Of a stretch of 48,819 bases of DNA, positions 15,290-19,333 are shown in pieces (positions within the stretch are counted from its first letter, which is position 1; the number at the start of each line of letters is the position of its first letter). Source of the DNA: Methanolobus sp. (GTDB lineage Archaea; Halobacteriota; Methanosarcinia; Methanosarcinales; Methanosarcinaceae); NCBI RefSeq assembly GCF_016278365.1, contig NZ_JADQBZ010000004.1:237723-286541 (forward strand). The letters are read 5' to 3'. Position numbers and translations under genes: made by a program. The notes beneath the pieces were generated by a model. The model was not told where the DNA came from, did not search any database, and saw only the letters and a program-made list of their open reading frames with translations.

Positions 15290-15640
15290 CTACTCTGCTG
15301 ACGGATCTTCGGATATCCCTGTGAATCTCTCACCGGAAACTATCTCGATGTCCCCGATAATGATCAGTTTTCCGGGCAGGATCTTTTTAAGTTCCGGGAT
15401 AATTCTCCTTATGTTCTCTTCCCTGTCAACTGCCTGGATGATCACGGGCAGGTCCGTACCAAGCCGAAGCACGCTTGCAGTATGTATCTTGTCATGGACT
15501 CCGTATCCTTCAATACAATGATGTGCTGTAGCCCCTGCGATACCTCCTTCTTTTAAGAACTCAAGCACTGAGTGGTGCGCACTCTTACCGTTGTACATGT
15601 CACCTTCACTGAGGTATATCCTGAGTATCAATGCCCGCAT
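15290..15640 (-). CDS. DUF190 protein, often linked with fluoride channels
   Basis: 116 residues covering a complete DUF190 domain, a PII-like ferredoxin fold. Typical features are the N-terminal LRIYLSEGDMYNGKSAHHSVLEFL, the GGIAGATAHHCIEGYG segment, and the central DLPVIIQAVDREENI. Family members are frequently encoded next to CrcB/Fluc fluoride channels. Here the fused Fluc gene lies about 1.6 kb away on the same strand, separated by two plus-strand genes. A small-ligand sensor role is likely, but the ligand is unknown. A GGAGGA ribosome binding site is visible upstream. Confidence 0.88.
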   Translation of the reverse strand: MRALILRIYLSEGDMYNGKSAHHSVLEFLKEGGIAGATAHHCIEGYGVHDKIHTASVLRLGTDLPVIIQAVDREENIRRIIPELKKILPGKLIIIGDIEIVSGERFTGISEDPSAE

Positions 15641-15696
15641 GTTCTTCCTCCTGTATCCTGGTAAGATATATAATCTTAAGATAACAATATTCTCCC

Positions 15697-16164
15697 ATGG
15701 GCAAAAGTAAATTTCCAGTAGTTCTTCTTGGATCTCTTGTGCTTCTTATCCTTGCAGGGGGTATCTATCTGGGGATGGTCCATTTGAAAGATCAAAATCC
15801 CGCTGGATTGAATGTGAGTTCTTCCGGGGCAGTGAACCTGGTGGAGAATTATCCTGCAGCAGTTGCCTATATGTCTGATAATTTCAGGGTCTCCAGCTGG
15901 AGGGAGACAAAGACTACGCTTATTCAGAGGGCTGAGTTCTTAAATAGCACTCCGGAAGATCTCGACAGTAGTGCAGTAAACGGTGACCAGGTCTGGAAGG
16001 TCGAGATCATGGAGCGTACTTGTGCATGTCCGGCGCCAAATGAACTCTACGTAGTTGAAGGCTATGTTGATGCCAGTACGGGGAATATCCTCCATGTTAA
16101 AACGATGACAGCTCCGGAGAAGAACTATGAAAAAGAAACCTGTGCTTCAACAGCCTGTCATTAA
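15697..16164 (+). CDS. Membrane-anchored extracellular protein paired with the thioredoxin-CcdA fusion
   Basis: 155 residues. An N-terminal transmembrane helix (about 7-27, VVLLGSLVLLILAGGIYLGM) is followed by an extracellular domain. A PepSY-like hint is seen in the pattern VWKVEIMERTCACPAPN...LYVVEGYVDASTGNIL. A Cys-Ala-Cys and two C-terminal cysteines (CASTACH) suggest a redox or metal-linked role. A TATA box (ATATATAA, 15664-15671) lies about 30 bases before the ATG, so the transcript is nearly leaderless. The last 38 bases overlap the start of the thioredoxin-CcdA gene in another frame, which indicates tight coupling. It may be a substrate or partner of that electron-transfer protein. 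Family not recognised with certainty. Confidence 0.75.
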   Translation: MGKSKFPVVLLGSLVLLILAGGIYLGMVHLKDQNPAGLNVSSSGAVNLVENYPAAVAYMSDNFRVSSWRETKTTLIQRAEFLNSTPEDLDSSAVNGDQVWKVEIMERTCACPAPNELYVVEGYVDASTGNILHVKTMTAPEKNYEKETCASTACH

Positions 16165-17242
16165 CCTTCTTTTACTGGTCCTATGCACATTTTTCCTTGT
16201 ACAGGTCCCGGCAGTTACAGCCACCCCTGATGAAGTGCAGGTGGAATACTTCTCTGATCCTGCATGTATCAAATGTACAAAGGCAGCTCCGGTGATCGAA
16301 GATGTTGCAGGCCGATACGAGCACGTCAATTTCACCAATTATGATATACGCTCCTCTTTCACATATGCACAGCACTATGGGATAACCCTTGTACCGGCTG
16401 TTGTCATAAATAAAAGCGTGGTAATATCTTACGAAGACTACAACGGTGACATTGCATTACTTGAGAACCTGCTGATTGAAGGCATAGAGAATCCTCCTGC
16501 AGCTGAGAGCCCGGAAGTGTTCTGGAAAAGTGATCCGTTTCAAAATGAAGGCCTGATTCTGGGGAAGTCTCATCTGCTTGTTTTTATCGCAGGTCTGCTT
16601 GCGGGCTTTAACCCCTGCCTTCTGGCAGTCATGGCTTTCCTGTCATCAGCGATCATATCTTCCAACGGGACCCGCAGGGACATGCTTACTTTGGTTTGCG
16701 GTTTTTGTACAGGTATCTTTGTGACATATATGGTAGTGGGGATAGGGATACTCAATACCATCAACTCCTTCCCGGATATACAGGAAACCATCACAATGCT
16801 AATGGTCGTGCTCATTTTCGCTCTGGGTATATGGCACCTCTATGATGCCTTTTACATGAAGGTGCACCAAAAAGGAACATTCAGGACCCCTCGCTTTTTT
16901 ATAAGGTTCATGGGGGAGATAAAAGGCAGGAACATCCTTATGCTTTCGTTCATCGCAGGCGGCTTATTCTCACTGATAAAAGCTCCCTGTGTCGGGGCAG
17001 TGTACCTTGCCATACTTGATATGCTTATCTCAGGTAACGACCCTTTGGGGAGTGCTGTCTATCTTGGGATCTATAATTTTGGCGTAGTTCTGCCCATACT
17101 CTTGCTGGGGGGTATGCTTGCCTTCGGGCTGAATCCTGAAAAGGTCTCGGACTTCAAGGAAAGAAGGCGTGTTGAGATACGGCTGATAACAGGAATGACG
17201 CTTATCCTGTTGGCTGTACTGCTGCAATTGAAAGTGATCTGA
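16127..17242 (+). CDS. Thioredoxin-like domain fused to CcdA/DsbD-type membrane electron transporter
   Basis: 371 residues. A signal or membrane segment (about 9-30) precedes a thioredoxin-like domain with the active-site motif CIKC at residues 47-50 in FSDPACIKCTKAAP and a cis-Pro region (TLVPAVVI). From about residue 145 six hydrophobic segments form a CcdA/DsbD beta-like module, with the two expected membrane cysteines in GFNPCLLAV and KAPCVGAVY. Such proteins carry reducing equivalents from cytoplasmic thioredoxin across the membrane to reduce extracellular disulfides. In this arrangement the attached thioredoxin domain would be the external acceptor. The gene overlaps its upstream neighbour and ends 32 bases before the convergent Fluc gene. 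Confidence 0.88.
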   Translation: MKKKPVLQQPVINLLLLVLCTFFLVQVPAVTATPDEVQVEYFSDPACIKCTKAAPVIEDVAGRYEHVNFTNYDIRSSFTYAQHYGITLVPAVVINKSVVISYEDYNGDIALLENLLIEGIENPPAAESPEVFWKSDPFQNEGLILGKSHLLVFIAGLLAGFNPCLLAVMAFLSSAIISSNGTRRDMLTLVCGFCTGIFVTYMVVGIGILNTINSFPDIQETITMLMVVLIFALGIWHLYDAFYMKVHQKGTFRTPRFFIRFMGEIKGRNILMLSFIAGGLFSLIKAPCVGAVYLAILDMLISGNDPLGSAVYLGIYNFGVVLPILLLGGMLAFGLNPEKVSDFKERRRVEIRLITGMTLILLAVLLQLKVI

Positions 17243-17274: not shown

Positions 17275-18144
17275 TTACCCGAATATCAGTTGTGCGGCTA
17301 TAACGCCTGCCATGCACATACCCAGGTTCAATACGATATTGAGCAATGAGTATTTCTTCTCTCCTTCCTCGAGGAGCCTGAAGGACTCGTAGGCAAATGT
17401 AGAAAAAGTTGTGAAAGAACCGAGTACTCCAATGCTCACAAGATATGTCATTGAACCGGACACTGATGAGAATGTCAATGCGGCAAGTACGAAGCTGCCT
17501 ATGACATTCACTGTAAGGGTGCCGGTATGGATTTCTCTGACCCTTGGAATGGCGCCGGCTACAAGGAACCTGAGAACTGCACCTGCAAATCCTCCAGTTC
17601 CCACAAGTAGCAGTTGAGTGCTGACCGCCAAACTTCCAGCCATGGACGGGAAAAGTATCAGTACAGATAGTCCGGCTATGCCATATACCATGTGACCCAC
17701 ATGCCTGCCCTTAAGAAGAGTCGTCAGCGTGCCTGGCAAGGGGAAAACAAATCTCTTATCCTTCAGGTCGGTAAGGTATATCACAATCCCTCTTCCCATG
17801 AAAACCCCTGCAACCGTAAGTACTATGTTCTCAATGATGTTCAGGGATGCATCCAGGGGTGGCATCTGAAAGGTTTGCACTGCAAAAGTAGAGAATGTTG
17901 TAAAAGATCCCAGGAATCCTATTCCGAAGAACATCTTCGCTTTAGGAGTGACATAACCGAGATACTCGGAGTTATATAGCAAAAAGCCCAGCAGAATGCT
18001 GCCGAGCACATTGACCAAAAGCGTTGCTGTGGCCGGGCTGAAATGTCCTGAAAATGCAAACCTGATTGTTGCGCCCAGCACGCCCCCAGCTCCTATTACA
18101 AACAGGGACTGGCACCTCTCCTGAAATGTGGCTTCTTTACTCAA
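17275..18144 (-). CDS. crcB: Fused double-domain Fluc/CrcB fluoride channel with inverting linker helix
   Basis: 289 residues, about twice a normal Fluc subunit. Domain 1 (about 1-124) has GGVLGATIRF at 20-29, the pore Asn45 in LLVNVLGS and FLGSFTTFSTF at 77-87. Domain 2 (about 178-289) repeats these as GGFAGAVLRF at 184-193, Asn213 in LTVNVIGS and VLGSFTTFSTF at 240-250. The linker (125-177) contains one extra hydrophobic helix (about 152-172). Single-domain Fluc proteins work as antiparallel dimers; with four helices per domain, one added helix would place domain 2 upside down. All key residues are kept in both halves, so both pores could be active. The start is a TTG overlapping the moeA stop by eight bases. 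It exports toxic fluoride. Confidence 0.93.
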   Translation of the reverse strand: MSKEATFQERCQSLFVIGAGGVLGATIRFAFSGHFSPATATLLVNVLGSILLGFLLYNSEYLGYVTPKAKMFFGIGFLGSFTTFSTFAVQTFQMPPLDASLNIIENIVLTVAGVFMGRGIVIYLTDLKDKRFVFPLPGTLTTLLKGRHVGHMVYGIAGLSVLILFPSMAGSLAVSTQLLLVGTGGFAGAVLRFLVAGAIPRVREIHTGTLTVNVIGSFVLAALTFSSVSGSMTYLVSIGVLGSFTTFSTFAYESFRLLEEGEKKYSLLNIVLNLGMCMAGVIAAQLIFG

Positions 18145-19333
18145 TCAATACAACATCCACTTCATTTCCTTCTTCGTATCCTTCCACGTTCTCAGGTATG
18201 ATTACAAAACCGTTGGATTTGGCGATGGAACTCAGGATTCCCGCTCCTGCGGTCATCAGAGGCCGGGCTGTATTACCTTCCAGTATCACCCTTGCGTAGC
18301 TCACATAACCTTCCCTTGAGTTTATCTTGCCTGTAAGTTTTGCCTTTACGGTGATATCAGGCATCTGCGGGATGTTTCCTTTTTTGCGTATAGCCGGCTT
18401 ACCGAAAGCAAAGAGTGCTACAAGCCCTGCGGCAGGATATCCGGGCATGCACAGTACAGGTACATCGCCGATGATTCCAAGTGCTGTCGGTTTCCCGGGG
18501 CTTAAACCCACGCCGTGCACAAGCTTCCTGCCCATGGAAGCCACTACCTCGGGCACATAGTCTTTTTCACCAACAGATGTCCCGCCGGAGATAACTATGA
18601 AGTCCGCATCCATATTCTCTGAGATAGCCTGCTTTATAAGTTCCCTGTCCTCGGGAACGATTGCACAGTACCGCGGCAGTGCACCCCACTGATGGATATA
18701 CAGGCCTATCATGAGGCTGTTGATGTCTAATGTCTTCCCCGGAGGTGGCACCTCGCTGCTGCTCTCAAGCGGGATAAGGTCATTACCTGTGGGAATGATG
18801 GCAACCAGTGGCTTGGAATAAATTTTTATCTCCCTTATTCCAAGGGAAGCGAGCACTGCTATATCGCAGGGTCGCAGCAGATGGCCTTTGTAGAATATGA
18901 TCTCATTCTGCCTCACATCCTCGCCTATGCCGCCTATATTCTTTCCCGGATGGACCTGTGCGCGCACTTCTATCATATCTCCGATACATATTGTATCCTC
19001 TTCCATTAGTACGGCATCGGCAGCATCAGGTACACAGGCTCCCGTATTCATTCTGCAACAAATGCCTTCTTCCACTTCATCATGGACCTGTAGCATGACT
19101 GGATTTGTGGGTGAAGCACCCAGGGCATCAACGGAACGGACGGCATAGCCATCCATTGCAGAGCGACGGTAGTGAGGTACATTTCTCGGTGCAAGTATGC
19201 TGGTTGCAAGCACCCTTCCCACGCCTTCATCTATTGCGATTGTATCGGTTCGTTCCAGAGGATGTATGGTGCCAAGGAACTTCTCTTTTGCTTCATTCAC
19301 ACTGCTGCGTTCTTTAATTATCCTGCTGTCCAT
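18137..19333 (-). CDS. moeA: Molybdopterin molybdenumtransferase MoeA
   Basis: 398 residues, the normal length. The N-terminal domains carry IHPLERTDTIAIDEGVGRVL and PHYRRSAMDGYAVRS. The MoaB-like domain carries the signature FIVISGGTSVGEKDYV near residue 245 and CMPGYPAAGLVAL. The C-terminal domain IV ends in EGNEVDVVLIE. MoeA inserts molybdate (or tungstate) into adenylated molybdopterin, completing the cofactor of formylmethanofuran dehydrogenase. The ATG at 19333 has GGGGG six bases upstream. It follows moaD by 18 bases and overlaps the Fluc gene, forming a moaD-moeA-crcB unit. Confidence 0.95.
   Translation of the reverse strand: MDSRIIKERSSVNEAKEKFLGTIHPLERTDTIAIDEGVGRVLATSILAPRNVPHYRRSAMDGYAVRSVDALGASPTNPVMLQVHDEVEEGICCRMNTGACVPDAADAVLMEEDTICIGDMIEVRAQVHPGKNIGGIGEDVRQNEIIFYKGHLLRPCDIAVLASLGIREIKIYSKPLVAIIPTGNDLIPLESSSEVPPPGKTLDINSLMIGLYIHQWGALPRYCAIVPEDRELIKQAISENMDADFIVISGGTSVGEKDYVPEVVASMGRKLVHGVGLSPGKPTALGIIGDVPVLCMPGYPAAGLVALFAFGKPAIRKKGNIPQMPDITVKAKLTGKINSREGYVSYARVILEGNTARPLMTAGAGILSSIAKSNGFVIIPENVEGYEEGNEVDVVLIE

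Follow-up and report, generated by a model that had tools for sequence, protein, structure and literature searches.

A natural two-domain Fluc gene fusion in Methanolobus with a predicted inverted second half

Fusion of the subunits of antiparallel dimers is the presumed source of the inverted repeats of transporters and channels. Among Fluc channels, the prokaryotic form is one four-transmembrane (TM) domain of 120–130 residues. Prokaryotic Flucs are homodimers or paired heterodimers, and the two-domain form is the eukaryotic FEX protein (PMC11139923, PMC3755343, PMC5417652), which keeps one pore only, the other being vestigial (PMC5417652). In the dual-topology homodimers Fluc-Bpe and Fluc-Ec2 (5nkq, 5a43), the single-domain product of one gene is inserted both ways; in heterodimeric pairs, such as La1/La2 of Lactobacillus and crcB1/crcB2 of the Methanosarcinaceae, the two halves come from two genes, without a linker helix. 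What would it take to join two such domains in one chain? Stockbridge et al. remarked that Fluc fusion must have needed the capture of a TM helix (PMC3755343); Laf-TM, an engineered antiparallel La1–La2 fusion made with a glycophorin A helix, is a fully active F− channel, whereas parallel fusions have minimal activity (PMC3755343). For DUF606, a transporter family unrelated to Fluc, the work of Lolkema et al. 2008, as reviewed in PMC3962082, outlines a route that leads from duplication through an oppositely oriented pair to fusion, with several stages extant. In the literature searched, which had key reviews outside its scope, no natural Fluc fusion from a prokaryote came to light, and an earlier mention is possible.

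Here we describe a Methanolobus gene that we consider, with a probability of roughly 0.85, to encode a double-barrelled Fluc channel that is monomeric and selective for F−, with its crcB1 and crcB2 domains joined through a charged loop and a TM helix. In the mechanism that we propose, two four-TM CrcB domains would be connected by a cytoplasmic loop of positive charge and an additional TM helix, and this helix, presumably inserted in the membrane, would let the second half enter upside down; the pore-forming antiparallel dimer would thus be built in one chain, with a fixed 1:1 stoichiometry. Fluoride would be conducted through two putatively working pores and would exit passively, with the membrane potential as driver, giving the protein a likely physiological role in export.

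One frame with two Fluc domains

The gene is a single open frame in the window, by which we mean the whole 48,819-nt stretch of DNA that was analysed (Table 1). Its TTG start, common to the fused relatives, overlaps the moeA stop by 8 nt. The protein holds two PF02537 CRCB stretches (Pfam; E 6.9e-41, 139 bits against a cut-off of 32.9), scores above the cut-offs of the NCBIfam fluoride efflux transporter CrcB models TIGR00494 and NF010820, and, with two domains and a linker helix in 289 residues, departs from the one-domain prokaryotic form. The single frame, the two CRCB stretches and a hydrophobic linker segment confirm the claim, made in a preliminary description of this DNA, of a two-domain Fluc fusion with an extra helix. 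The fused gene was the sole CRCB match in a whole-genome search of the source genome, and no fluoride riboswitch was found within the window.

Table 1. Coordinates of the fused crcB gene, its parts and neighbouring genes in the window
Feature	Position	Strand	Remarks
Fused crcB1-crcB2 gene	17275..18144	(-)	289 aa, TTG start, TAA stop; orthologues fused in six further Methanolobus species
moeA	18137..19333	(-)	Directly upstream of fused crcB; fused relatives share neighbourhood
Fluc domain 1	17770..18114	(-)	Residues 11-125, TM1-TM4; orthologue of unfused crcB1; N-in, C-in by charge
Fluc domain 2	17281..17619	(-)	Residues 176-288, TM6-TM9; orthologue of unfused crcB2; N-out, C-out by charge
Linker loop	17698..17769	(-)	Residues 126-149; hydrophilic, Lys/Arg-rich; cytoplasmic side predicted from K/R counts
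Linker transmembrane helix (predicted)	17632..17697	(-)	Residues about 150-171; absent in all unfused pairs
TTFSTF of TM3	17884..17901	(-)	Residues 82-87; TM3 break, Phe box F84/F87, vestibule Ser S85
TTFSTF of TM8	17395..17412	(-)	Residues 245-250; Phe box F247/F250, vestibule Ser S248
DUF190 (COG1993)	15290..15640	(-)	Directly downstream of crcB2 in outgroups; here two opposite-strand genes between

Pore positions were set by alignment to Fluc-Ec2, whose F80/F83 correspond to F84/F87 here. Both domains have the Fluc TM3 motif with its broken helix, the Phe box, the pore Asn, the vestibule Arg and Ser and the triad Thr; invariant in the fused rows are R28/R192, T41/T209, N45/N213, F84 and F87/F247 and F250, S85/S248 and N106/N273. 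Of the TTFSTF residues of TM3, T86 alone varies among the fused orthologues, two species having Ala there. The preliminary description had placed N45/N213 and R28/R192 correctly, but each of its Phe pairs (81/84 and 244/247) included one wrong Phe, the boxes being F84/F87 and F247/F250. Its statement that both halves keep the full set of pore residues holds for nearly all of them; the exception is the triad Glu, present as E253 in domain 2 but replaced by Q90 in domain 1. This residue is Glu in over 85% of Flucs and Gln in about 5% (PMC8315801). Gln occupies the position in 31 of 36 crcB1-like sequences, nearly all unfused, and the asymmetry between the domains therefore predates fusion and is not decay that followed it. 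Judged by its residues, neither half of the Methanolobus fusion appears to have undergone FEX-like pore decay, and both pores probably conduct.

An early AlphaFold2 model from a thinner alignment of 31 close rows was poor (pLDDT 50). Because a wide MAFFT alignment placed crcB1 rows on domain 2, rows were chosen to cover both halves, and the run on 47 of these gave a model with a pLDDT of 87.7 and a pTM of 0.83, with Fluc-type breaks in TM3 at residues 82–83 and in TM8 at 245–246, and with a low-confidence linker helix at 149–163 plus 166–169 (block pLDDT 56). The best PDB match is the cryo-EM chain 9op1_C of Candida albicans FEX (Z 27.0, 3.2 Å, 261 residues, model residues 1–286), followed by single-chain Flucs at Z about 12; in other words, structure prediction, one of the checks proposed earlier, returned a FEX-like fold along the whole chain. 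Aquaporins also matched, at Z 7–8.5, far below 9op1_C, and we take these matches to reflect a common arrangement.

The linker helix and the orientation of the halves

Does the linker cross the membrane, and which way would the halves then face? The Kyte–Doolittle value of the 19-mer at residues 156–174 is 1.99, an equivalent hydrophobic segment is present in all seven fused orthologues, and the Wimley–White octanol sums of the segment, −2.3 to −5.2, lie inside the range of the other eight TMs. For the count of Lys and Arg, the N-terminus and loops 2–3, 4–5, 6–7 and 8–9 were taken as inside, and loops 1–2, 3–4, 5–6 and 7–8 and the C-terminus as outside; the vestibule residues R28 and R192 lie inside TM segments and were left out. 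The loops of the seven fusions together have 79 such residues predicted inside and 0 outside, and those of the window protein 14 and 0 (Fisher p 0.005), a distribution that points to an N-in, C-out protein of nine TMs with domain 2 inverted. Two further parts of the preliminary description are thus supported, namely the additional hydrophobic helix, by both scales and by its conservation in seven fusions, and the nine TMs with oppositely oriented halves, by the charge counts and by a model that matches FEX along its whole length. In unfused crcB1 and crcB2, Lys and Arg lean to the same sides as in the fused halves; the heterodimer orientation therefore probably preceded fusion, which would have required the gain of an odd number of TMs.

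The loop design of the fused protein (a long charged loop 4, a TM helix and a short loop 5) is that of Laf-TM, and a fixed antiparallel monomer is expected of both, although Laf-TM is man-made and the Methanolobus fusion natural. With FEX (Candida albicans 9op1; yeast Fex1), the protein shares two Fluc domains, a TM linker helix and antiparallel halves, here predicted, at Z 27; unlike FEX, it is archaeal, has a recent single origin nested in crcB pairs and keeps the residues of both pores. It resembles the heterodimeric pairs in its orthologous domains, their charge bias and the Gln in the crcB1 triad, and the Methanosarcinaceae pairs share its locus. With Fluc-Bpe and Fluc-Ec2 it has the pore residues and, at Z about 12, the fold of the single domain in common.

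How secure is the fusion itself? Two separate genes could in principle look joined through a mistake in sequencing or assembly, or through gene decay, and the preliminary description had named such a reading error as one finding that would overturn it. In one relative, genome G013, a 10-bp deletion where domain 2 starts does interrupt the fused layout (L040:6547-7382), and assembly error and real loss are indistinguishable in this case. Against this single case, the fused frame is intact in 7 of the 27 Methanolobus genomes examined, the six relatives being 60–83% identical to the window protein; the seven assemblies are independent, and two of them (G026 and G008) are single-contig. Indels in the linker keep the frame, most of the linker's alternative frames are riddled with stops, and dN/dS, at about 0.10–0.25 in both domains for most pairs and 0.28–0.66 in the linker, indicates purifying selection that is relaxed in the linker (separate values for the helix are noisy because that part is short). 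An artefact of this kind is exceedingly improbable, and we treat the gene as a genuine fusion.

Within a genuine fusion, the linker helix might nevertheless be amphipathic or re-entrant, leaving the halves to orient by their own charges, or the linker might be cut to yield a heterodimer. The low pLDDT of the helix, the relaxed constraint on the linker and the orienting charges already present in the unfused halves would all be compatible with such an arrangement, which we nonetheless hold to be quite unlikely: a hydrophobic 19-mer without charged residues has been kept in seven species despite a mean linker identity of 46%, parallel fusions with soluble linkers are minimally active (PMC3755343), and only an odd number of intervening TMs would accommodate both of the oppositely charged loops. 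A membrane-spanning helix is thus our preferred reading. A little less improbable, though still unlikely, is a FEX-like, single-barrelled channel with one pore already non-conducting. Eukaryotic FEX provides the precedent (PMC5417652), and Q90 and the change of T86 to Ala could be read as early signs; yet Gln is the usual residue in crcB1, Fluc-Bpe E88Q still conducts F− (PMC8315801), neither half shows any variation in its Phe box, Asn, Ser, Thr or Arg, and the fused species have about the same mean identity in domain 1 (0.756) as in domain 2 (0.778). We therefore favor the double-barrelled channel.

Origin of the fusion

Most of the remaining Methanolobus among the 27 genomes have an adjacent, often overlapping crcB1–crcB2 pair whose crcB1 stops shortly after TM4; this pair state is shared by the other Methanolobus in which the locus could be resolved and by all other Methanosarcinaceae with matches. 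The locus order moaD–moeA–crcB–(Trx/DsbD and PepSY-like, other strand)–DUF190–YhbY is kept across the genus with few local losses. In a tree of the flanking genes, whose linkage makes it a locus tree serving as a stand-in for a species tree, the eight species with the fused layout form one clade (support 98/98), and the pair state is found across a single branch from this clade and in every outgroup. Among 112 Methanosarcinaceae genomes, full-length matches are confined to the fused clade; the family search for other archaeal fusions, proposed earlier, thus yielded seven intact Methanolobus fusions in one clade. We conclude that the fusion arose once within Methanolobus, from neighbouring crcB1 and crcB2 genes whose products were already oppositely biased in charge, and that the event gained about 45 codons including a helix. 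The fused gene thus parallels FEX and displays the step from heterodimer to fusion, the same route as that proposed for DUF606 in the account cited above. The preliminary description had seen in the gene a step between dual-topology proteins and FEX; having arisen from crcB pairs at the same locus, and not by descent from a eukaryotic fusion, it is instead convergent with FEX and not its ancestor, and the earlier interpretation is thus partly supported.

Where did the helix come from? When DNA was aligned locally against the 14-kb locus, scores stayed near the shuffled level; a search of the source genome with the linker protein gave chance matches only (E 0.15 and 0.33), and in GC3 the linker resembles its neighbours. 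The helix may be local sequence captured de novo, or it may stem from a donor that has diverged beyond recognition. The fusion is young: species with the fused gene and species with the pair belong to a single genus, share the locus and have flanks that align, and this makes the composition of the helix and the changes that came with fusion testable. Also testable is whether pore decay of the FEX type is due to fusion or comes long after it, both pores in Methanolobus still being intact as far as their residues tell.

Beyond the Methanosarcinaceae, no full-length match was found in 398 genomes of one bacterial phylum (centre Paenibacillus), a search in which diverged fusions would be missed, or among viral contigs; plasmid matches were two-piece haloarchaeal pairs or single domains. 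Long haloarchaeal ORFs from a 393-genome phylum survey were considered as fusions, and the 20 inspected, among the matches listed, were all overlapping but separate pairs.

Two observations concern the neighbourhood and copy number. In other Methanosarcinaceae, DUF190 (COG1993, with weak P-II similarity) lies directly downstream of crcB2, and in Methanolobus (window 15290–17242) PepSY-like and thioredoxin/DsbD-like genes on the opposite strand stand between crcB and DUF190; one fused species (genome G011, L036) has no PepSY-like or Trx/DsbD match there, and the interruption looks absent or lost. The sole co-mention of DUF190 and CrcB found in the literature was unrelated. Additionally, two species of the fused clade (genomes G023, C82, and G013, C7) have a second CrcB besides the fused gene, about 40% identical to domain 1; that of G013 is single-domain and on another contig.

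Other joined and paired crcB genes

The premise of the preliminary description that known prokaryotic Flucs are single-domain proved too simple, since a different type of fused CrcB is present in most Methylococcales. This protein, of about 235 aa (L104:1510-2214, L117, L118, L119, L125, L138), has a complete first domain and a second half homologous to TM2–TM4 of the first (E 1e-14 to 1e-25), without TM1 and with Leu at both Phe-box positions. A near full-length match is present in roughly four in five of 151 Methylococcales genomes, among the matches listed, and in the six genomes tested the fused gene is the sole CRCB gene. The 4+3 TM layout would also invert the second half, in this case by helix loss, and any pore formed within one chain would combine Phe with Leu. 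The protein has a weak charge bias and may be either one inverted chain or a dimer.

Have prokaryotes, then, fixed the antiparallel Fluc dimer in one chain at least twice, and by opposite means? In Methanolobus this would have been the capture of a helix with no detectable donor, a recent and independent re-invention of FEX with both pores alive, and in Methylococcales the loss of TM1 from the second half. We offer this broader reading tentatively, at slightly less than even odds.

In Exiguobacterium indicum (L085:1492-2262), crcB1 and crcB2 share a reading frame and are separated by a lone TGA, with an ATG directly after it; several other crcB pairs are in frame too, at about chance frequency.
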